A stretch of 37,904 nt of DNA from Betaproteobacteria bacterium (GTDB lineage: Bacteria > Pseudomonadota > Gammaproteobacteria > Burkholderiales > Thiobacillaceae): contig VGVU01000002.1 of the NCBI GenBank assembly GCA_016873905.1, positions 1-37,904 on the forward strand, given 5' to 3'. Both the position numbers and the translations under genes were made by a program. The notes beneath the pieces are model-generated. The model saw only the letters and a program-made list of their open reading frames with translations, was not told the origin of the DNA and searched no databases. Below, piece by piece: positions 6,249-35,360 of this stretch. How positions within the stretch are numbered: position 1 is the first letter of the stretch; every line of letters starts with the position of its first letter.

Positions 6249-7541
6249 TTATGGATGCACGCGATCAATCACCAATTTAACTCCCTTGGCACCCACCTTG
6301 ACCGCAGACAGCGTACCTTCCAAATCACCCTTGACCGGTTTTGGCTGACCGCTCTTGCTGACGGTGGCCACCAGCACCACTTCGGGCACCTTGGAGAGGG
6401 TCATGTCCTGCGTCATCGCCATGCTGTCATCAAGTACAAAGGCCAACGGCAAGGCACTCGCCCGCGCCTTCATCACAGCCAGGAGCGGCCCCTTCTCGCC
6501 AGCACGGGCGGAGAGAAAAACCGTGTCCTCGGGACGCACTTTGTCCTTGAGCGCAGCCGCCAATTCAACGCGACCCTCGATACGGGGGCCGGTTGAGGCC
6601 TTTGCCTTGGGCTTGGCCGGTTCTTTGCCCGGCTGGGTCAGGCCAGCCAGACCCGCTTCAGCCTTGCCGCGCGCATCGCGTTCAGCCTCGGCGATGTTCT
6701 GACCATAGCCCGACCGCTTCTCCTCATCGCTCATTTGCTTGATCAGGCTTTTCCAGTAATAGGCCGCCTGCGCCCAGTTTTCCTTCTGATAGGCATGGAT
6801 GCCTGCCAGCTCCAGGGCCTTGGGTTCAAGAGGATTCAGCTCCAGTGCGTGGCGCAAAAGACGGATAGGTTCACCCTCCAGATTCCGGTCACCGGCCAGC
6901 GCGATGGCCTCGGCGTAATGCGCCCAGACGGACGATTCCTTGGGCATCAATTCCGTGGCCTTCTTCAAGGCCGCCACCGCCGCCGGGAAACGCTCCATCG
7001 CCAGGTTGGCCATACCCCACTTCAACCAGGCCTGAGCATTCTTCGGGTCCGCCTCGGCCGCCTTCTGTAGCTTCTCGAGTTCCGCCTCGATCTGGGCCAT
7101 GTTGGCCGCCATATCTTTACCTGCATGCGGGTCCTGAGAGGCAGGGGCACTGGCCAGGGCCGGCTGAATCAATATCTCAGGCGTACCCCGCCAGACATAA
7201 AGGGCGATGGCCAGAACCGGCAACACACCTGCTACCGTCCAGCCAACCCAGCGCCCGCCACGATCGCTCGATGCCGCTACGGCCGTCTCTTGCAGGGCAT
7301 CCTCGCTCAGGCGGTCTTCCAGCTCCAGCCGGGATTGCTCAAACTGCTCGGCAGACAAGGCCCCGTTGTCCCGTTCGGACTCAAGATCCTTCAGTTGATC
7401 GCGATAGACCGCAATGTTCATGGCACGCCGCTCTGAGCCATGCGACTTCGGGGTGCGCAACAAGGGTGGCAGTACCCACACGAGCGCGACGCCCATCGCC
7501 AACACGGCGACACCGACAAAAATCCAGAGACTCTCGTTCAT
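6249..7541 (-). CDS. ccmI: Cytochrome c biogenesis protein CcmI (TPR)
   Basis: Start adjusted to MNESLWIFVGVAVLAMGVALVWVLPPLL; NIAVYRDQLKDLESERDNGALSAEQFEQSRLELEDRL, TPR region, terminal gene of the ccm operon; ATGA overlap with ccmH. Confidence 0.92.
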   Translation of the reverse strand: MNESLWIFVGVAVLAMGVALVWVLPPLLRTPKSHGSERRAMNIAVYRDQLKDLESERDNGALSAEQFEQSRLELEDRLSEDALQETAVAASSDRGGRWVGWTVAGVLPVLAIALYVWRGTPEILIQPALASAPASQDPHAGKDMAANMAQIEAELEKLQKAAEADPKNAQAWLKWGMANLAMERFPAAVAALKKATELMPKESSVWAHYAEAIALAGDRNLEGEPIRLLRHALELNPLEPKALELAGIHAYQKENWAQAAYYWKSLIKQMSDEEKRSGYGQNIAEAERDARGKAEAGLAGLTQPGKEPAKPKAKASTGPRIEGRVELAAALKDKVRPEDTVFLSARAGEKGPLLAVMKARASALPLAFVLDDSMAMTQDMTLSKVPEVVLVATVSKSGQPKPVKGDLEGTLSAVKVGAKGVKLVIDRVHP

Positions 7542-7993
7542 TCCGATTTTCCTTCCAGAATACGCGCCGCTTCGGCCCGTGCTTGAGTATTCGCCACACC
7601 TTCCGGTTGGGCGCGACGACGCTTCAATACCGTCCACCAGACCATCCCGCCCACCAGCAGGAAGAACAGCGGACCCAGCCAGAGCACCAGAGTCAGGGGT
7701 TTGAACGGGGGCTTGTAGAGCACGAAATCACCATAGCGCGCCACCAGATACTCGACCACCTGCTTGTCATCCTTGCCCTGCTTCATCTGATCGCGAATCT
7801 CGCGGCGCAGATCCTCGGCCAGCTCGGCATGTGAGCCGGCCAAACTCTCGTTTTGACAGACCAGGCAACGCAGATCCTCGGCCAGCACATTGAGGCGCCG
7901 CTCAATCTGCGGATCTTCGCCGACCGGTTGCGCCTCGCCCGCGAAGGCCTGGGTGGCCAACAGCGTGGCCATTATCATGAACAACCGCTTCAT
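7538..7993 (-). CDS. ccmH: Cytochrome c maturation protein CcmH
   Basis: Signal peptide, LRCLVCQNESLAGSHAELAEDLRREI, C-terminal transmembrane segment. Confidence 0.96.
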   Translation of the reverse strand: MKRLFMIMATLLATQAFAGEAQPVGEDPQIERRLNVLAEDLRCLVCQNESLAGSHAELAEDLRREIRDQMKQGKDDKQVVEYLVARYGDFVLYKPPFKPLTLVLWLGPLFFLLVGGMVWWTVLKRRRAQPEGVANTQARAEAARILEGKSE

Positions 7994-8511
7994 CGCGCCA
8001 ACTCCTTCAACATCGGTTCGAGTTTTTCCTTCCAGACTTCTTCGGTAATCGGCCCGGTCTGCTTGAAGCGAATGATCCCCCCTTTGTCGACAACGAAGGT
8101 CTCCGGCGTGCCGGTCACGCCATAGTCAATGCCGACGCGGCCATCCAGATCCTCTACGGTGCTCAGGTAAGGGCTGCCCAAGCGAGCCAAAAGCGCCGCC
8201 GCCTCGCGATCCTTGTCTTTCCAGTTGAGTCCGACCAGTTTGACGCCCTGCGCCTGAAGCTGCATCAGCACACCATGTTCCTGACGGCAGGACACGCACC
8301 ACGGCGCCCAGACATTGAGCATCCAGACCTGACCACGCATCTCTTCCGGGCCAAAGGTCTTGGCCGGGTTACCCACTTCCGGCAGGCGGAATGCCGGTGC
8401 GGGCTTACCGATGAATGGCGATGGCACCTCGCGCGGATTCTTGGTCAGGCCAATGGCAAAAAAGACCGCCAGGACCAGAAAAACAATCAGGGGAATGAGA
8501 CGCTTGTTCAT
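7990..8511 (-). CDS. ccmG: Thiol:disulfide interchange protein CcmG/DsbE
   Basis: FIGKPAPAFRLPEV, MLNVWAPWCVSCRQEHGVLM, YGVTGTPETFVVDKGGIIRFKQTGPI. Confidence 0.96.
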   Translation of the reverse strand: MNKRLIPLIVFLVLAVFFAIGLTKNPREVPSPFIGKPAPAFRLPEVGNPAKTFGPEEMRGQVWMLNVWAPWCVSCRQEHGVLMQLQAQGVKLVGLNWKDKDREAAALLARLGSPYLSTVEDLDGRVGIDYGVTGTPETFVVDKGGIIRFKQTGPITEEVWKEKLEPMLKELAR

Positions 8512-10442
8512 GCGGCCGCCTTATCTTTCAAGGCGATGCGATAACGACGGTCAGACGCAGCCAGCGCACCACCCAGGGACATCAGCGCCGCCGCAAACCA
8601 CAACCAGCCAATGAAAGGTTTGTAGAACAGGCGAATCGTCCAGACCTGCGGCTCAATCTCCTCGCCCATTGCCACATAAACATCGCGAAGCACGCCGTAA
8701 TCGATCCCGGCCTCCGTCATCGGCATGCCCCCGGCGTTATAGAGGCGCTTCTCGGGACGCAGGCTAAATTCCGACCCACTCTCCGACTTAACCACCAGAT
8801 GCCCGCGTGCCGCGTGGTAATTGGGGCCCTCAAACGCCTCGGCACCCTTGAAGGTGAAGGTATAACCCGCGAGCTGCGCCGTATCGCCGACCGCCATCTT
8901 CACATTGCGCTCACCCTCATAACCGGACACCAGCGCCATGCCGACGATGCCAATCGCCATCGACAGGTGCGCAAGCTGCATCCCCCAGAAACCTCGCGGC
9001 AGCGTCCACGGGCTGCCACCCCGTTTGAGTCGCTCCGTAAAGCCCAAGGCCACGCCGTAGGCAATCCACACCGCCAGACCCATGCCCAGGGCCACCCAGG
9101 GCTTGAACTCGCCAGCCGCCAGCGGCACGGCCACCGCCGCGACCACGGCCACGGCAAAGGCCAGACGCAGACGCACCACCATGTCAGGCAGGCTGGCACC
9201 CTTCCAGCGGGTCAGCGGACCGACCGCCATGAGGAAAAGAACCGGCACCATGAGCGGCACAAAGACGGCATTGAAATAGGGTGCGCCCACCGAGATCTTG
9301 CCCATGCCAAGGGCATCGAGGAACAGCGGATACAGGGTGCCCAGCAAGACCGAACCCAAGGCTGCAACCAGCACCACATTGTTGACCAGAAGCAGGGACT
9401 CCCGCGAAAACGCCGAGAAGCGGGCGCTACCGAGCATCGTCGGGGCACGCAGGGCGTAGAGCAACAAGGAGCCGCCAATCACCACCGCCAGGAAACCAAG
9501 GATGAAGGCCCCGCGGGCCGGGTCGGTGGCGAAGGCATGCACCGAGGAAAGCACCCCGGAGCGCACCAGGAAGGTGCCCAGCAGCGACAGAGAGAAGGCG
9601 GTGATTGCCAGGAGCACGGTCCAGGACTTGAAGACCCCGCGTTTCTCGGTCACCGCCAAGGAGTGGATCAGGGCCGTACCGGCCAGCCAGGGCATGAAGG
9701 AGGCGTTTTCGGTCGGATCCCAGAACCACCAGCCGCCCCAGCCGAGTTCGATATAGGCCCACCAACTGCCCAGCGCGATGCCCATGGTAAGGAAGGTCCA
9801 CGCCACCGTGGTCCACGGCCGCGACCAACGCGCCCAAGCCGCGTCCAGCTTTCCGGAAAGGAGGGCGGCGATAGCAAACGCAAACGCAACCGAAAAACCA
9901 ACATAGCCCATGTACAGCATCGGCGGGTGTAAGACCATCCCCGGATCCTGCAACAACGGGTTCAGGTCACGCCCATCGGGCGGCGCCGGCAATAGACGGT
10001 CAAACGGGTTGGAGGTAAAGAGCAGAAAGGCGAGAAAACCGACCGACACCAGGCCCATGATGCCAATCACGCGCGCGACCATGTCTTCCGGCAGACGGCG
10101 CGACAGTACGCTGACCGCCATGGTCCAGAAGGCGAGAATCAGCGTCCACAGCAACATGGAACCTTCATGCGATCCCCATGAGGCCGTAAACCGATAGACC
10201 GCCGGCAGTTGCGAGAAGGAGTTCAGCGCGACATTGCGCACCGAAAAATCATTCTGCAAGAAGGCCGTCACCAGACAGGCATAGGCCAACGCTACAAACA
10301 GAAACTGCGCCCGTGCAGCCGGTCGGGCCACCGCAAGGAAACGGGCGTTGCCGGTCTGCGCGCCGATCAGCGGCAGGACGGATTGCACCAGCGCCAGAAG
10401 CAGCGCCAGAATAAGGGAAAAATGGCCGATTTCAGGGATCAT
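8508..10442 (-). CDS. ccmF: Heme lyase subunit CcmF
   Basis: 644 aa polytopic; WWAYIELGWGGWWFWDPTENASFMPWL (WWD domain). Confidence 0.97.
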   Translation of the reverse strand: MIPEIGHFSLILALLLALVQSVLPLIGAQTGNARFLAVARPAARAQFLFVALAYACLVTAFLQNDFSVRNVALNSFSQLPAVYRFTASWGSHEGSMLLWTLILAFWTMAVSVLSRRLPEDMVARVIGIMGLVSVGFLAFLLFTSNPFDRLLPAPPDGRDLNPLLQDPGMVLHPPMLYMGYVGFSVAFAFAIAALLSGKLDAAWARWSRPWTTVAWTFLTMGIALGSWWAYIELGWGGWWFWDPTENASFMPWLAGTALIHSLAVTEKRGVFKSWTVLLAITAFSLSLLGTFLVRSGVLSSVHAFATDPARGAFILGFLAVVIGGSLLLYALRAPTMLGSARFSAFSRESLLLVNNVVLVAALGSVLLGTLYPLFLDALGMGKISVGAPYFNAVFVPLMVPVLFLMAVGPLTRWKGASLPDMVVRLRLAFAVAVVAAVAVPLAAGEFKPWVALGMGLAVWIAYGVALGFTERLKRGGSPWTLPRGFWGMQLAHLSMAIGIVGMALVSGYEGERNVKMAVGDTAQLAGYTFTFKGAEAFEGPNYHAARGHLVVKSESGSEFSLRPEKRLYNAGGMPMTEAGIDYGVLRDVYVAMGEEIEPQVWTIRLFYKPFIGWLWFAAALMSLGGALAASDRRYRIALKDKAAA

Positions 10443-10445
10443 CCG

Positions 10446-10892
10446 TTACTCCTTCAAAGTCGCTTTCGCCTTCTGCGCCTGCTCAATCGCACTCGCAGCC
10501 TCGGGCGGCATATAGTTCTCATCATGTTTGGCGAGCACCGTCGTCGCGGTAAAGCGGCCGTCTGCACCGATGCGACCCTCGGCCACGGCGCCCTTGCCTT
10601 CCTTGAACAGGTCCGGCACGACACCCTGATAGGTGACGGGAATACTGTGTGCCGTATCGGTCACCTTGAAGGTCAGCGTCATACCGTCACCGCTGCGCTG
10701 GATACTGCCCATTTCGATCAAGCCGCCAATACGGAAGGCGCGATCCTTGGGCGCTTTTCCTGCAGCCACCTCGGTGGGCGAAAAGAAGAACACCAGATTG
10801 CTGCGAAAGGCATTGAGTACCAGCATGACCACAATACCCAACACGGCCACAACCACCCCGATGGCTAAAAGTTTCTTGTGCCGGGACTTCAT
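10446..10892 (-). CDS. ccmE: Heme chaperone CcmE
   Basis: Start adjusted to [54 protein letters not shown], heme-binding [11 protein letters not shown]. Confidence 0.95.
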
Positions 10893-11065
10893 TGCGCCTC
10901 CCAGCGTTGCATGCGCTGCAACCGGTTGATCAACGACCGTTGCCCGCGCCGCAACAGCCAGACCTCCAGGGCCACACCCAGGACCGTCACGCCGAACGAA
11001 CCCCAGACATACAGCCCATATCCGCCCATGGACCAGAACGCGGTCCCGCTTTGCCACACCATCAT
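10889..11065 (-). CDS. ccmD: Heme exporter protein CcmD
   Basis: Short, one transmembrane segment: [45 protein letters not shown]; lies between ccmC and ccmE. Confidence 0.85.
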
Positions 11066-11793
11066 GCCTCCTTCAGGGCCGCTTGCGCCCAATCTGTATG
11101 TCGTTCCCGTTCCAAAATCAAGCCACGCACCCTTACAAAAGCAACGGCAATGGTATAGAGCCAAGCCGCAACAGCCATCACCAGCATACCCACCAACATG
11201 ATCGTCGCCATGGAAGGCGCCTTCGTGAGGTTGATGGACGAACCCTGATGCAAGGTGTTCCACCATGTTACCGAGAAATAGATGATCGGCACATTGACGG
11301 CCCCGACCAGGATCAAGAGCGCACCCGCGCGGTCCCCGCGCTTCGGGTCATCAATCGCGGCCCACAGGGCCATGATGCCCACATAGAGGAAGAGCAGGAT
11401 CAGTTGCGAGGTCAGGCGCGCATCCCACACCCACCAGGCGCCCCACATCGGCTTGCCCCACAAGGCGCCGGTCCAGAGGGCGAGGAAACAGAAGAGCGCC
11501 CCCGTCGGCGCCAAGGCGCGTGCCATCAGGAAGGACAGCCGGGTATTGAAGGCCAGGCCGATGGCACACCAGAAGGCCATGACCAGATAGATGAACATCG
11601 ACATCCAGGCGGTCGGAACATGGATGAAGATGATGCGGTAGGCCTCACCCTGCTGAAAATCGGTCGGCGCCACAAAGAAACTGATATAAAGCCCGATACC
11701 CGCAAGAAGAGCCGCGCCCCAGGCAAACCAGGGAATCCAGCGTCCGGCCAGGTGATAAAAAGTCGCGGGGGCTGCGTAGTGATATAGGTTCAT
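11062..11793 (-). CDS. ccmC: Heme exporter protein CcmC
   Basis: 243 aa; [43 protein letters not shown] (WWD), [11 protein letters not shown]. Confidence 0.97.
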
Positions 11794-11817
11794 GGCCGTC
11801 TCAATCCTTATTTATCT

Positions 11818-12486
11818 TTAATCCACCGAGACCCGCAGGGCCGCCCCGGTCACCCAAGGTGCCAGCAGCAGGCACAGACCCATGAAGGCCCCCAGCAGCG
11901 AGAGTTGCGCCTCCGCGCCCATCCCGGCCAAAACCCCGTCCACAGCCCCAGCGCCAAAGATCAGGGCTGGAACATACAGGGGAAGGATGAGCAAGGTCAA
12001 CAGGGTCCCGCCGCCCCGCAGACCCAAGGTCAGCGCGGCCCCCACGCCGCCCAACAAGGAAAGCACCGGGGTGCCGATCGCCAACGAGATCACGAGGGTG
12101 CCGATCGCATCCGGTGGCAGGGCAAACTGCAGCCCCAGCAAGGGCGCGATCACCAAGAGCGGCAGGCCGAAGATCAGCCAGTGGGCAATGGCCTTGCCGA
12201 GCGCCAGAATCAGCGCCGGTTGCGGTGAGAGCAACATCTGTTCGAGGCTGCCATCGCGATGATCGTCGGCATACAACCGCTGGAGTGACAGCAGGCTCGC
12301 CAACAGGGCCGCGACCCACAGCACCCCGCCCGCCACCCGGCGCAACTGCTCCGGGTCGGCCCCAATACCCAGCGGGAACATACTCACCACCATGACAAAA
12401 AAGAACTGCGAGGTCAGCCAGTCGCCTTTGCGCCGCGCCGCCAGCAAAAGATCGCGACGAATCACCGTCATCAGGAAGCGCCACAT
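11818..12486 (-). CDS. ccmB: Heme exporter protein CcmB
   Basis: 222 aa; VIRRDLLLAARRKGDWLTSQFFFVMVVSMFPLGIGADPEQLRR, DGSLEQMLLSP. Confidence 0.95.
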   Translation of the reverse strand: MWRFLMTVIRRDLLLAARRKGDWLTSQFFFVMVVSMFPLGIGADPEQLRRVAGGVLWVAALLASLLSLQRLYADDHRDGSLEQMLLSPQPALILALGKAIAHWLIFGLPLLVIAPLLGLQFALPPDAIGTLVISLAIGTPVLSLLGGVGAALTLGLRGGGTLLTLLILPLYVPALIFGAGAVDGVLAGMGAEAQLSLLGAFMGLCLLLAPWVTGAALRVSVD

Positions 12487-12489
12487 CGC

Positions 12490-13158
12490 TTACGCCTCCT
12501 CATGCGCAGATACAGACACTGGATCATCCACCTGCATGACCGGGCCGATCTGCAACGGTACCGTATCCACCCCCTGGAGCCGCAGAGGCTGGTGCGTGGT
12601 CATCACCACCATGCCACCCGCCTGAACATGCTCGCGCAGCAAGGTCTCCACCTCCGCCACCCCGCGAACATCCAGCCCGGTCAACGGCTCATCCAGAATC
12701 CACAACAGGGCGCCCGAAACCAGCAGGCCCGCCAGGGCTACCCGGCGACGCTGGCCAAAAGACAAGACCCGTGCCGGCAGATCCAGACAGGCTGCCAGTC
12801 CCATGCGCACCAAAACCGGCTCGATCTCCGCCGGTACCAACTTCTGGCCCCGCAACCCCGCATAAATCTGGACATTCTCGACCGGCGTCAGGTCATCCTT
12901 GACCCCATTGGCATGCGCCAGATACACCATGGCTTGATGATAGGTCTCGCGATTCCGGTCGATGGATTCACCATTCCAGCGCACCTCCCCCGCCGCGGGT
13001 TGCGACAAGCCACTCAGTAGCCGCAGAAAGCTGGTCTTTCCACGCCCATTGCCCCCCTGCACCAACAGTAACTGGCCGGCCTGCAGATCCATCTGCAAGC
13101 CTAAAAATAGCAGCCGGTCACCGCGTTGGCAGGTCAAATCATGAGCCGAAAGTTGCAT
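12490..13158 (-). CDS. ccmA: Heme exporter ATPase CcmA
   Basis: Start adjusted to MQLSAHDLTCQRGDRLLF; Walker A GGNGRGKTSFLRLLSGL, signature LSFGQRRRVALAGLL, Walker B LWILDEPLTGLD. Confidence 0.95.
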   Translation of the reverse strand: MQLSAHDLTCQRGDRLLFLGLQMDLQAGQLLLVQGGNGRGKTSFLRLLSGLSQPAAGEVRWNGESIDRNRETYHQAMVYLAHANGVKDDLTPVENVQIYAGLRGQKLVPAEIEPVLVRMGLAACLDLPARVLSFGQRRRVALAGLLVSGALLWILDEPLTGLDVRGVAEVETLLREHVQAGGMVVMTTHQPLRLQGVDTVPLQIGPVMQVDDPVSVSAHEEA

Positions 13159-13220
13159 CAACAAAGGATGGGTAAAAATGATCGTGGAGGATAACCGGAA
13201 ACGCTGCCGGTCTCCATGTA

Positions 13221-13233
13221 TTGTTTCAAACAA
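13221..13233. promoter_or_regulatory. Candidate operator palindrome TTGTTT-c-AAACAA upstream of ccmA
   Basis: Perfect 6-1-6 inverted repeat in the ONR-ccmA intergenic region. Confidence 0.3.
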
Positions 13234-13280
13234 GCAGATGGCGCAGCCTAGATCTATCCTGGCTAACACAATCGATGCCC

Positions 13281-13308
13281 AAAAAAAGGGGCCGGCATCA
13301 CCGGCCCC
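13281..13308 (-). terminator. Rho-independent terminator downstream of the octaheme cytochrome gene
   Basis: Minus strand reads GGGGCCGG-tgatg-CCGGCCCC-TTTTTTT. Confidence 0.85.
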
Positions 13309-13325
13309 CGCACTCTAGCTACCGA

Positions 13326-15041
13326 TTACTTCTTGGCAGCCATGGCCTCTTTCAGCATCTTGATACCGGCCTTCGAGGCATCCATCGACTTGGCCAGCGA
13401 CTCGCGTGCCTGCTCCGGGTTATGGAAGCCGTCGGAATTCTCGGCGGTCCACCATTCCCAGTACAGGGTCGCGTCATACTGATACTCCTTGGCCTTGGTC
13501 ATGGTGGCCTCATCCACGCCCTTGTCATTGGCCTTCAGCATCTCGTCGATGAGTTGGGCCAGCCAGAACTCGGCCTTGGTCATCTTGCCGCGAATGTAGT
13601 TCTGGATCGCGTCAATCTGATACTTCGACTCTTCAACGCTCCAGCCCTTGTGACACTTGGCACATGTTTCCTGGGTCATGTTACGAGCACTCTGCTGACC
13701 GTGCCATGTGTAGGGCTTGGCATCAGCCGAGGACTTGACCTTGGGCATATGGCAATCCTTACACTCAACACCGGCACGCTCGTGCTTGGAACCCCAAACG
13801 GTCTCCATTTCCGGGTGCTGGATCTTGGGCAACAACGCACCCGTGCTGGCATGCTTGAAGTCCTTGAAGTTGTACTGCTTGGTCATCACATCCTTGTAGC
13901 CCATGACATTGACCCACGGGAACAGGTTGGTGCGCGGGTCAGACATCTTGATGAACTCGGGTGCCTTGCCTGTCGCTGCATTACCCAGGTCAAAGCCCGG
14001 GCCACAGTTGTATTCCACATGGCACTGGGCACACATGACATTCGAGTCCGACTTCGACAAGAGACCAATGGCACGGAAATCCTTGCCGTCGCGCTGGAAC
14101 CAGACCTTCTTGATGGTGCTCTGGGCGCTCTTGACCGGATCCATCGGATAGGTGCCCAGCTTGCGATCAACCACAGCCTCAATCAAGCCGTCACGCACCA
14201 CGCGCGGGGCTGCCGAGTGCGGGTCATGGCACATGAAACAGTTGAGCGGATGCTTCAGGTCACGGGCAACATCAACCACCTTGGAGGTACGATCCCACTT
14301 GGCCTTCGGGTGCTTGTCGCCCATGTATTTCCAGTCCAGGATGTGGTCTTGGGTCTTACAACTCAGACACACCGGATTACCCGCTGTCACAACCTGAGAC
14401 ATGAACCGCTTCTGGTCCGAAGTGGATGGCTCCTTATCCGTCAGGATATTCCAGGCGCCCTTCACGGCCCCGTCTGCATCGCTGATATGCATCCAGTTCT
14501 TGAGCTGGAAGCGGCCACCGTAGGCGCGATCCACGATCAAGTGATCAACCAGCATGAAGGCGTGCGAACGCGGCTCGTTGTGCTCAATGGTAAAGCCGTA
14601 GCCCTCCATCAGCTTGTCGAACAGCGGCGAACGGCTCTTGAAGGCCGCCTTCTCAACCCGGGCCCCGGAGGCATGATTGAGCTTGACGAAGGAATTGTAC
14701 TGATCTGCGTGACAGGTGGCGCAAACCTGATGGTCCATCCGGGTCACAGGCCGTTTGCCCATGTCCTTTTCCTTCGCACTCTTCAGGTGATCAACCGCGT
14801 CGTGGCAGGCGGCACAGTTCACCGTGGCGTGACGACCACCGCTATGGAATTCCTCGATATTGTCGTGACAGGAATAACACTTCTTTTCCTCGATCGGGGA
14901 AATCGGTTTGGCGGCCTTGGTCGCAACCGGTTCAAAGTCACTCGGCTTCAAGGGTGCCGAGACTCCTGCGTGTGCCGTCAAAGCGAGGAGACATGCCCCC
15001 ACCCCCAGCACGCTGCGTGTAATCCACTGCGTAATGTTCAT
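13326..15041 (-). CDS. Octaheme c-type nitrite reductase (ONR/TvNiR-like; NrfA-related ammonia-forming)
   Basis: Seven CxxCH (CYSCH, CAACH, CATCH, CFMCH, CAQCH, CKDCH, CAKCH) plus one CxxCK (CLSCK) as the 4th motif; NrfA-like CAQCHVEY and QHPEMETVWGSKHERAGVECKDCHMPK; Tyr-x-Cys in HVEYNC. Start placed at MNITQWITRSVLGVGACLLALTAHA with AGAGGAG Shine-Dalgarno. Confidence 0.9.
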   Translation of the reverse strand: MNITQWITRSVLGVGACLLALTAHAGVSAPLKPSDFEPVATKAAKPISPIEEKKCYSCHDNIEEFHSGGRHATVNCAACHDAVDHLKSAKEKDMGKRPVTRMDHQVCATCHADQYNSFVKLNHASGARVEKAAFKSRSPLFDKLMEGYGFTIEHNEPRSHAFMLVDHLIVDRAYGGRFQLKNWMHISDADGAVKGAWNILTDKEPSTSDQKRFMSQVVTAGNPVCLSCKTQDHILDWKYMGDKHPKAKWDRTSKVVDVARDLKHPLNCFMCHDPHSAAPRVVRDGLIEAVVDRKLGTYPMDPVKSAQSTIKKVWFQRDGKDFRAIGLLSKSDSNVMCAQCHVEYNCGPGFDLGNAATGKAPEFIKMSDPRTNLFPWVNVMGYKDVMTKQYNFKDFKHASTGALLPKIQHPEMETVWGSKHERAGVECKDCHMPKVKSSADAKPYTWHGQQSARNMTQETCAKCHKGWSVEESKYQIDAIQNYIRGKMTKAEFWLAQLIDEMLKANDKGVDEATMTKAKEYQYDATLYWEWWTAENSDGFHNPEQARESLAKSMDASKAGIKMLKEAMAAKK

Positions 15042-15121
15042 GATATTGCTCCTCTTGGTTGCAGACACCCCGGCAGGGGCAGGTTTATGAGTCATCCGTT
15101 CATTCATCATCGCCTCCGGTC

Positions 15122-16420
15122 TCAGACAAAGGCATCAGCCATGATGTTGTTGAACCAGCCGTTGGCATACTCCGCCTCCAGCCGACGAGTGATCGGCGGC
15201 GCCTGAACCGGCGAGACCCCGCCGGCCGTCTTCACATAGATGAATTTGTTGTCTTCCACCTTGTACACATGGACCACCGAGAATCCGTAATCCGGTGCCG
15301 CCAGGCTATAACAGGTGTTGACATAGAAGGGCTCGGGGTTGGGCAAACCATTGAGCTTGGCAATGATGGCCCCCGCAGCAACCTTGGCCTGAGTGACAGC
15401 CATGTGCGCGGACTTGGGCATGTCATAGACGGGCAATTCGCCAGCGATACAGCAATCGCCCACCGGATAGATGTCCGCGTGCACCGTCGATTCCATGCTC
15501 ATCGGCTTCACCTCACACCAGCCTTGCGCATTGGCCAACCCGGCATCACGGGCAATCTTGCCCGCCTTGTGGGCCGGAATGATATTGACCACGCGCCCCT
15601 TGTGTTCGCCAAAGGTGGTGTAACAGGTGCGGGTCTTGGGATCGATCTTCACGACCTTGCCGTCGTCCTTGCCCGGAACCCATTCAATCATGCCCGGGTA
15701 AAGCGCCTTCCACGCCTGCGTAAAGAGCGCTTGCTTGGAGAAGGAATCATTTGGGTCCAGGATCAGGATCTTGGACTTGCCCTTGCCGTGATGCTTGAGG
15801 TAGTGCGCAATCTGCGCCGCACGCTCATAAGGCCCGGGCGGGCAACGGAAAGGCTTGGGCGGCGGGGCAATGATGCAGACTTCGCCATCCTTCATCGCCA
15901 TCACCTGGTCTTTCAGCAGCAGCGTCTGCGGGCCTGCCTTGTAGGCATGCGGAATCTCTTCGGAGACCGCCTGCGTATAGCCCTCCACGGCACCCCAAGT
16001 GAAATCAACGCCGGGGGCCATGATCAAGGCATCGTAGGACAAGGTAGCGCCGCCCGTCAGGGTTACCACCTTCTTGACCGGATCCACAGCCGTCACCCAA
16101 CGCTGCACGATGTTGATTCCGCGTGCGGTCAGACCGCCATAGCGGGTTTGCAGGCTTTCCAGGGTGCGATGGCCCGAGATCACTTCATTAGACAGCGGAC
16201 ACGCGGTATAAGTGGCATTGGGTTCAACCAAGGTGACATCAATCGCGGGATCCATCACTTTGATGTATTTGGCCGCTGCCGCACCACCGAACCCCCCGCC
16301 GACCACGACGACCCGGGCCTTTGCGGTCGTCGTTGCACGCGCCGCAGGAACCGTCAGGATTGAAGCCGAGCCCGCCGCCGCAAGGGACTGCAAAAATACA
16401 CGCCGATTTACACTATTCAT
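15122..16420 (-). CDS. fccB: Flavocytochrome c sulfide dehydrogenase, flavoprotein subunit FccB (Tat signal)
   Basis: NRRVFLQSLAAAGSASIL twin-arginine signal; VVVVGGGFGGAAAAKYIK FAD site; YTACPLSNEVISGHR; VGDCCIAGELPVYDMPKSAHMAV; NTCYSLAAPDYGFSVVHVY. Start at 16420 or 16423. Confidence 0.93.
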   Translation of the reverse strand: MNSVNRRVFLQSLAAAGSASILTVPAARATTTAKARVVVVGGGFGGAAAAKYIKVMDPAIDVTLVEPNATYTACPLSNEVISGHRTLESLQTRYGGLTARGINIVQRWVTAVDPVKKVVTLTGGATLSYDALIMAPGVDFTWGAVEGYTQAVSEEIPHAYKAGPQTLLLKDQVMAMKDGEVCIIAPPPKPFRCPPGPYERAAQIAHYLKHHGKGKSKILILDPNDSFSKQALFTQAWKALYPGMIEWVPGKDDGKVVKIDPKTRTCYTTFGEHKGRVVNIIPAHKAGKIARDAGLANAQGWCEVKPMSMESTVHADIYPVGDCCIAGELPVYDMPKSAHMAVTQAKVAAGAIIAKLNGLPNPEPFYVNTCYSLAAPDYGFSVVHVYKVEDNKFIYVKTAGGVSPVQAPPITRRLEAEYANGWFNNIMADAFV

Positions 16421-16430
16421 CATCGTCTCC

Positions 16431-17024
16431 TCACTGACCTTTCTGGACAGCCATGAAGTGTGACACCTCACTGACCTCGGCCGGCTCTAACTTCTGTGCG
16501 TTTTTGCGCATCTTGCGATGGGGCAGTTTGACGGCCTCATCGCGATACTTGTCCAGCTCCATCTCGAGATACATGGCCCACTGTCCATTCAGCCGTGGCG
16601 TCTCTGCATCGGTAGGCTGTCCTCCGCGCTCACCATGACAGGTGGTACAGCGATCACTCACCAGGCGGCCGTTGAAGATGACCTGATCAGGCGCGCGCTG
16701 CTCGGCAGGAACCCAAGGCTGGGCGGCGAAATATTTGGCGAGGGCGGCGATCTGCTCGTCGCTATAACCTTTAAGCAGACGACCCATGGTGGCGGAATAG
16801 CGCGTCCCATTCTTCCATTCCAACATCACCATACGCAGGTAACTTTCAGACTGTCCGCCGATGGAAGGCATTGAAGCCCCCACGCTGACACCCTTAAGTC
16901 CGTGACAGTTGTTGCAGGTGTTGGCCAAGGCCTCAATGGAACCCGAAGCCATCGCTGGCGCCACCATTGTGCTACCTGCCAGACACAACATCAGGGCACA
17001 GGCCCTTCGTATTGCTTTTTTCAT
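16431..17024 (-). CDS. fccA: Flavocytochrome c sulfide dehydrogenase, diheme cytochrome c subunit FccA
   Basis: Signal peptide; two heme motifs CNNCHGLKGVS and CTTCHGERGGQ; adjacent to and upstream of fccB. Confidence 0.9.
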   Translation of the reverse strand: MKKAIRRACALMLCLAGSTMVAPAMASGSIEALANTCNNCHGLKGVSVGASMPSIGGQSESYLRMVMLEWKNGTRYSATMGRLLKGYSDEQIAALAKYFAAQPWVPAEQRAPDQVIFNGRLVSDRCTTCHGERGGQPTDAETPRLNGQWAMYLEMELDKYRDEAVKLPHRKMRKNAQKLEPAEVSEVSHFMAVQKGQ

Positions 17025-17190: not shown

Positions 17191-17230
17191 ATTTTAGCAG
17201 AAACCAAATGAGCGTCTTGACTTTTATCAA
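17191..17230 (-). promoter_or_regulatory. Candidate FNR/Anr-type class II promoter of fccAB-ONR
   Basis: TTGAC-TTTT-ATCAA (17217-17230; one mismatch to TTGAT-N4-ATCAA), with minus-strand -10-like TAAAAT at 17196-17191, giving a site centre near -40 to -41.5. Confidence 0.6.
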
Positions 17231-17297: not shown

Positions 17298-17341
17298 CCA
17301 AAAACAAACCGCCCCGTTCGCCGTCAGGGCAAACGGGGCGG
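17298..17341 (-). terminator. Rho-independent terminator of pbpG
   Basis: Minus strand CCGCCCCGTT...AACGGGGCGG followed by TTTGTTTTT. Confidence 0.85.
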
Positions 17342-17359
17342 TCAAGCCAACAGAGGCGA

Positions 17360-35220: not shown

Positions 35221-35360
35221 TAGTAGGGCCCGGGCCCCGCTCTTTCAAGCCCCTGGAGCGCAATTATTTGTGTGCATTACGCGCTTGGCCTCCATTGCGA
35301 GTTGATAGGTGTCAATTTTCTTGCACCCATTCGCCCTTCTCTGGAGTAGAGTTCGCCATC

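Follow-up and report, generated by a model that had tools for sequence, protein, structure and literature searches.

Periplasmic reduction of nitrite to ammonium is described with donors that draw on the quinol pool: NrfH, CymA, and NrfB with NrfCD, the donors of NrfA, are all quinol-linked, and a 2025 review gives donors of this kind only (PMC12285233). In Desulfurivibrio alkaliphilus, sulfide oxidation is coupled to the reduction of nitrate and nitrite to ammonium without nrfB or nrfH, and the study left the electron path from sulfide unsettled (PMC5516251). For TvNiR and TvPaR, the octaheme nitrite reductases (ONRs) of Thioalkalivibrio, the literature searched was found to describe neither a gene partner nor a physiological donor. 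In the same genus the fccAB genes, which encode flavocytochrome c sulfide dehydrogenase, cluster with thiocyanate dehydrogenase (PMC5328954). Here we analyse a locus in which fccA and fccB directly precede an onr gene. It lies in a 37,904-nucleotide stretch of DNA (the window) that makes up positions 1 to 37,904 of contig VGVU01000002.1, from a draft Thiobacillaceae genome (GCA_016873905.1; 1.4 Mb, 92% complete).

We propose, with a probability of roughly 0.6, that fccA-fccB-onr is an FNR-regulated periplasmic unit in which FccAB would be the dedicated sulfide electron input for ammonia-forming nitrite reduction, replacing a quinol dehydrogenase. The original prediction had been an operon that functionally links sulfide to nitrite. 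The pairing of the genes, their shared FNR-type promoter, the lack of an internal terminator, the scarcity of NapC/NrfH donors and the re-pairing of FccAB with other enzymes all speak for it; the electron shunt itself we infer. Two conditions under which the original prediction would have failed, a promoter and terminator of its own for ONR and loss of the pairing in relatives, were checked, and neither held.

Two intact-looking enzymes in one predicted transcript

The three genes follow one another head-to-tail on the minus strand, fccA first, then fccB and the octaheme open reading frame (ORF), and the coordinates bear out the gaps of about 10 and 80 bp claimed for them (Table 1). With fccB starting at ATG 16423 or 16420, 7-10 bp separate it from fccA; a longer GTG-initiated ORF reaching 16471 would overlap fccA. 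The second gap measures 80 bp if ONR starts at ATG 15041, which has a good Shine-Dalgarno sequence and is followed by a signal peptide, or 11 bp if the in-frame upstream ATG 15110 is used (ORF 13326-15110).

FccB contains the FCSD_central and FCSD-flav_bind domains, both far over cut-off, and matches solved flavocytochrome c flavin subunits, 5n1t being the best. Its flavin adenine dinucleotide (FAD)-binding Cys 74 and redox pair Cys 193/370 are present, and these cysteines are kept in 83/83 FccB proteins compared. The partner cytochrome subunit, with its two heme motifs, is encoded immediately upstream. The octaheme protein aligns over residues 69-592, nearly its full mature length, with TvNiR, and carries seven CXXCH motifs and an active-site CXXCK (CLSCK), that is, eight c-heme motifs. 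We also checked the catalytic Arg, Tyr, His and Gln, the heme-ligand Lys and the Cys partner of Tyr: the counterparts of TvNiR R131, K188, Y303, C305, Q360 and H361 are all present in the window's ONR and invariant over 13 relatives. By these features both the flavocytochrome c sulfide dehydrogenase and the ONR look intact, and sulfide would be the substrate of FccAB.

A terminator at 17343-17307 insulates the unit from the preceding gene, and the strong terminator placed after onr by the original prediction (13281-13308) was confirmed at 13309-13287. Between fccB and onr, terminator-like and sigma70-like sites were looked for and none was found. All together, fccA, fccB and onr would form one transcript.

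An FNR-type box upstream of fccA

A perfect match to the FNR box pattern TTGAY-N4-RTCAA precedes fccA, where 0.09 perfect boxes are expected per window. It is followed by a probable -10 element, and relatives have TAC[TC]AT at about the same distance from their box; with this spacing, the two elements would be arranged as in class II FNR promoters. In the window's own genome, the same type of box is found ahead of nap and between nirS and norC, and regulators of the FNR/CRP family (HTH_Crp_2) are present. The only other perfect box in the window (35302-35315) lies 53 bp upstream of moaA, which fits anaerobic control of molybdopterin synthesis.

Across the loci compared, a box lies at most 450 bp from fccA in 24/29 testable fccAB-onr operons and in 2/2 operons with an HAO-type octaheme gene. 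In total, 26/31 octaheme-linked operons have a box, against 7/51 fccAB loci of other kinds (Fisher p 2e-10, without correction for common ancestry). Among the five exceptions, one has a single-mismatch box (L055, on the same contig as L244) and three have napB directly upstream, so that their promoter is probably farther out. FNR control of the unit is thus suggested by a conserved predicted box.

The pairing is a trait of the Thiobacillaceae

ONR was found in 34/117 Thiobacillaceae genomes. The survey of ONR neighbourhoods for which the original prediction had asked could be judged in 33 of these genomes (in G053, onr lies at a contig edge), and in 30 of them fccB stands immediately upstream of onr. 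In one of the others (G046), fccAB and onr share a cluster but are separated; in the remaining two (G014, G028), the ONR is only 51% identical and placed elsewhere. Among the best 80 named loci, 31 have fccB directly upstream of onr, among them one from a gammaproteobacterium (L072) and one from a distantly related betaproteobacterium (L078), and 38 have enough upstream sequence and no fccB directly upstream. In a Thioalkalivibrio metagenome-assembled genome (MAG; L079), fccAB is divergent to onr and farther away. In an even sample of the class, two genomes besides the window's own had ONR, neither with fccAB nearby. The pairing is therefore characteristic of the Thiobacillaceae, with a few instances in other groups. 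One record with the same cluster, at 94% identity and with full synteny, is a MAG titled Bordetella parapertussis (L048, CAMDCO010000019.1), almost certainly a misassigned Thiobacillaceae MAG.

Even relatives with an FccB just 53-65% identical have the same gene order, which is therefore not due to chance. It is also retained where the upstream genes differ (L239, L242, L248). Synteny driven purely by the downstream cytochrome c maturation (ccm) genes was considered and set aside, because fccAB-onr survives where no ccm genes lie downstream of it (L248, L251, L072, L078).

Few NapC/NrfH-type quinol dehydrogenases that could feed ONR

No NrfH or NapC gene adjoins onr in the window, nor was NrfBCD, which was looked for solely beside onr, found there, in agreement with the original prediction. 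No match to the NapC/NrfH family (PF03264) over cut-off was obtained in five genomes of the window's genus, and just 3/34 ONR-bearing genomes of the family have a full-length quinol dehydrogenase of this type; since the draft genomes are incomplete, an absence from any one of them counts for little. In two Rhodocyclaceae loci (L098, L099), a nonaheme-cytochrome b fusion lies directly upstream of onr, in the place of fccAB; in Thiobacillaceae this fusion instead neighbours fccAB, elsewhere in the genome. FccAB fits as a donor to ONR, because a membrane cytochrome b protein fills the same position in Rhodocyclaceae.

FccAB recurs beside different redox partners

A family-wide search yielded about 80 loci with an FccB of the window's type or a similar one, and we inspected their neighbours. 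The diheme fccAB stands beside ONR at about 30 loci. Elsewhere its neighbour is an HAO-family octaheme protein (best structure 4qo5), set between fccAB and ccm in the usual ONR slot (L213, L229); NapAB, with NapA over cut-off (L216, L218, L232, L246); a pentaheme cytochrome (L233-L237, L259); the nonaheme-cytochrome b fusion (12 loci, mostly divergent); or an Mtr-like decaheme conduit (L258, L247). At four further loci (L215, L217, L226, L240), a gene for a Phs/Arr-like molybdoenzyme follows fccAB, together with genes for an Fe-S and a diheme protein, and in L217 and L226 a CRP-family regulator and a two-component system lie upstream.

The fusion joins a nonaheme c domain to a cytochrome b561-like membrane domain, and a PDB search gave no useful relative for it. 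Its Thiobacillaceae loci are L214, L224, L225, L227, L228, L230, L252-L254, L256, L257 and L278; those of the Rhodocyclaceae are the two named above. In L247 (1653-12001), a NapC-like cytochrome, an MtrA-like decaheme protein and an MtrB-like protein of 749 aa are encoded between napGHB-fccAB and ccm, so that the ONR slot would hold an electron conduit of the extracellular type; for both L258 and L247, the Mtr and NapC-like names are presumed from heme counts and sequence recognition. Two Thiobacillus loci (L242 and L245, 2-12001 each) read napA-napG-napH-napB-fccA-fccB-onr-ccm in one direction, a predicted nitrate-to-ammonium pathway with a sulfide module inside.

On the FccB tree, the partner labels require 18 changes, and the well-supported branches alone force 10 changes for the onr label (by a quick method). 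In both G130 and G101, the sister of the onr-linked FccB is the genome's own molybdoenzyme- or pentaheme-linked copy. Such recurrent changes of partner indicate that FccAB was copied and re-paired repeatedly. In G023, the FccB copies that precede the HAO-type octaheme protein (L229) and a pair of decaheme Mtr-like proteins (L258) are identical in protein sequence, which would point to recent duplication or gene conversion.

We therefore put forward, tentatively and as somewhat more doubtful than not, that diheme FccAB is a modular electron input, duplicated in Thiobacillaceae onto private acceptors (ONR, HAO-type octaheme protein, NapAB, Phs/Arr-like molybdoenzyme, Mtr-like conduit). It would thereby give quinone-independent periplasmic sulfide respiration, and in FccAB-ONR, ammonia-forming nitrite reduction would have its first sulfide-linked donor system.

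Neighbouring features and genome context

The ccm block beyond the onr terminator is a conserved neighbour of fcc-onr and probably a separate unit. ccmABC have tblastn matches in syntenic relatives; the remaining ccm names are taken by us from sequence recognition of the gene calls.

In many relatives, the space between fccB and the octaheme gene holds a mini-ORF of 9-11 codons (consensus like MTDARETTDV) with a strong Shine-Dalgarno sequence, and then a GC hairpin (L033, L034, L036, L038, L043, L044, L241, L244, L248, L251, L260, L261, L277; also L213, L229). Its counterpart in the window's genus is an in-frame N-terminal leader of ONR (15042-15121 in the window). Coding constraint on the mini-ORF is weak, third positions being barely more variable by codon-position conservation, and the consensus fold of the hairpin has 7 pairs, of which 2 show compensatory changes, and its covariation term is unfavourable.

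The genome also carries narG with a NarK-like gene, napDAGHB without napC, nirS and norCB, as well as two oxidases of the cbb3 type and two genes of the sulfite reductase family that resemble dsrAB in size, several of these names coming from sequence recognition. A second FccAB, with a monoheme FccA, is encoded elsewhere (L206). From this inventory, the organism would be a sulfur oxidiser able to respire nitrogen oxides, with ONR as an extra nitrite sink.

Table 1. Features of the fccA-fccB-onr locus and its surroundings (window coordinates).
Feature	Position	Strand	Remarks
fccA (diheme cytochrome subunit, flavocytochrome c sulfide dehydrogenase)	16431..17024	minus	two CXXCH; matches 3vrd_A, 1fcd_C
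fccB (flavoprotein subunit)	15122..16423	minus	PF21706, PF09242; 5n1t E 2e-129
onr (TvNiR-type octaheme nitrite reductase)	13326..15041	minus	2zo5 E 9e-224; CXXCK heme, catalytic residues
FNR/ANR-type box TTGATAAAAGTCAA	17217..17230	minus	perfect match; kept upstream of fccA in relatives
Probable -10 element TAAAAT	17191..17196	minus	20 nt past box; read from sequence
fccB-onr gap	15042..15121	minus	in-frame leader (ATG 15110) in the window's genus; mini-ORF and hairpin in relatives
Intrinsic terminator of the preceding gene (D-Ala-D-Ala carboxypeptidase-like)	17307..17343	minus	16-pair stem and T-run
Intrinsic terminator 3' of onr	13287..13309	minus	10-pair stem and T-run
ccm genes (ccmA to ccmI-like, cytochrome c maturation)	6249..13269	minus	past the onr terminator

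Discussion

In the mechanism that we favour, sulfide would be oxidised at FccB and its electrons would reach the two hemes of FccA via FAD, then move on from FccA to ONR, directly or through a small cytochrome c. Under oxygen limitation, ONR would reduce nitrite, produced by the Nap and Nar nitrate reductases, to ammonium, and FccAB would take the part that NrfH, CymA or NrfBCD plays for the ammonia-forming nitrite reductases already known. Because both half-reactions are periplasmic, the route would not itself pump protons; judging from this topology, its value would likely lie in the disposal of sulfide electrons and nitrite, or in ammonium supply, without oxygen. The overall driving force would be ample, since the sulfide/sulfur couple lies near -0.27 V and the nitrite/ammonium couple near +0.34 V.

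Several points weigh against this mechanism. The hemes of NrfA-type enzymes are often of low potential and those of FccA lie near 0 V; the first transfer could therefore be uphill, and direct electron transfer from FccA to ONR would be the weakest step. Electrons have other routes in this genome, which also encodes a further nitrite reductase, NirS. Most ONRs outside the Thiobacillaceae have no fccAB nearby and three fccAB-ccm loci lack onr, so that neither partner strictly needs the other. The FNR box counts, moreover, carry no correction for shared ancestry. The presence of several private fccAB copies per genome, together with a monoheme FccAB for general use, argues for a dedicated pairing, although it does not prove it.

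The main rival, unlikely in our judgement but to be taken seriously, is that the genes share their timing only: FNR would induce fccAB and onr jointly at low oxygen, electrons from FccAB would enter the common cytochrome c pool of the periplasm, and that pool or a quinol/bc1 route would supply ONR. Indeed, the FNR box is common to nap and nirS/norC, the cbb3-type oxidases and NirS are alternative sinks in the genome, and ONR elsewhere works without fccAB nearby. However, general use is already served by the monoheme FccAB, the private copies adjoin different acceptors within a genome, and fccAB loci without an octaheme partner mostly lack the box. Shared timing alone therefore fails to explain the pairings.

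A protective or sulfur-cycling role appears improbable. FccAB would then clear sulfide that poisons ONR, or re-oxidise sulfide that ONR makes from sulfite, with nitrite reduction fed elsewhere. TvNiR does reduce sulfite to sulfide in vitro (PMC5433712), but such a role leaves unexplained why fccAB also has NapAB, molybdoenzymes, cytochrome b fusions and Mtr-like conduits as neighbours, and why the unit would share FNR control with nap and nirS. The sulfite/sulfide cycle that the original prediction had offered as an option received no support specific to the window's locus.

Least probable of all is an accident of position, in which onr landed between fccAB and its old neighbour ccm because both need heme maturation, with no function shared by the three genes: fccAB-ccm without onr does occur in one genus (L221-L223), fum-dac-fccAB-onr-ccm is a wide synteny block and onr adjoins ccm genes in other families too, but the pair persists with a different upstream side or without downstream ccm, the FNR box tracks the octaheme-linked copies and FccB has changed partner recurrently.

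If FccAB does feed ONR, sulfide would be oxidised and nitrogen retained as ammonium with the quinone pool bypassed. For sulfidic lakes, groundwater and bioreactors, this would alter both the predicted energy yield and the expected balance between denitrification and ammonification. Moreover, the same type of FccAB beside varied acceptors provides a comparative system for asking whether neighbourhood predicts the electron partner.

Neither an FNR-controlled fccAB-onr unit nor fccAB as a re-pairing cassette was found described in the open-licence literature searched. TvNiR and TvPaR (2zo5, 3sxq) resemble the window's ONR in family, heme motifs and catalytic residues, and they too come from sulfur oxidisers; the difference is that onr here belongs to an FNR-boxed unit with fccAB. 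Known FccAB proteins (1fcd, 3vrd, 5n1t) share the flavin subunit with its conserved cysteines and, in 1fcd and 3vrd, a diheme FccA, but they are usually described as feeding the general cytochrome c pool, whereas the window's FccAB is paired with a terminal reductase. The Thioalkalivibrio thiocyanate dehydrogenase cluster likewise joins fccAB to another periplasmic redox enzyme; there, however, the partner yields sulfur for oxidation, whereas the partners in Thiobacillaceae look like electron acceptors. NrfHA, NrfABCD and CymA-NrfA (PMC12285233) also perform periplasmic six-electron reduction of nitrite to ammonium, but with quinol-linked donors, for which the window's genus has no NapC/NrfH-type gene over cut-off. 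The genome of D. alkaliphilus, unlike that of the window, is without a flavocytochrome c. The enzymes are thus each known, as is sulfide-driven ammonification; what is new is their arrangement, with a strongly suggested, putative electron path.

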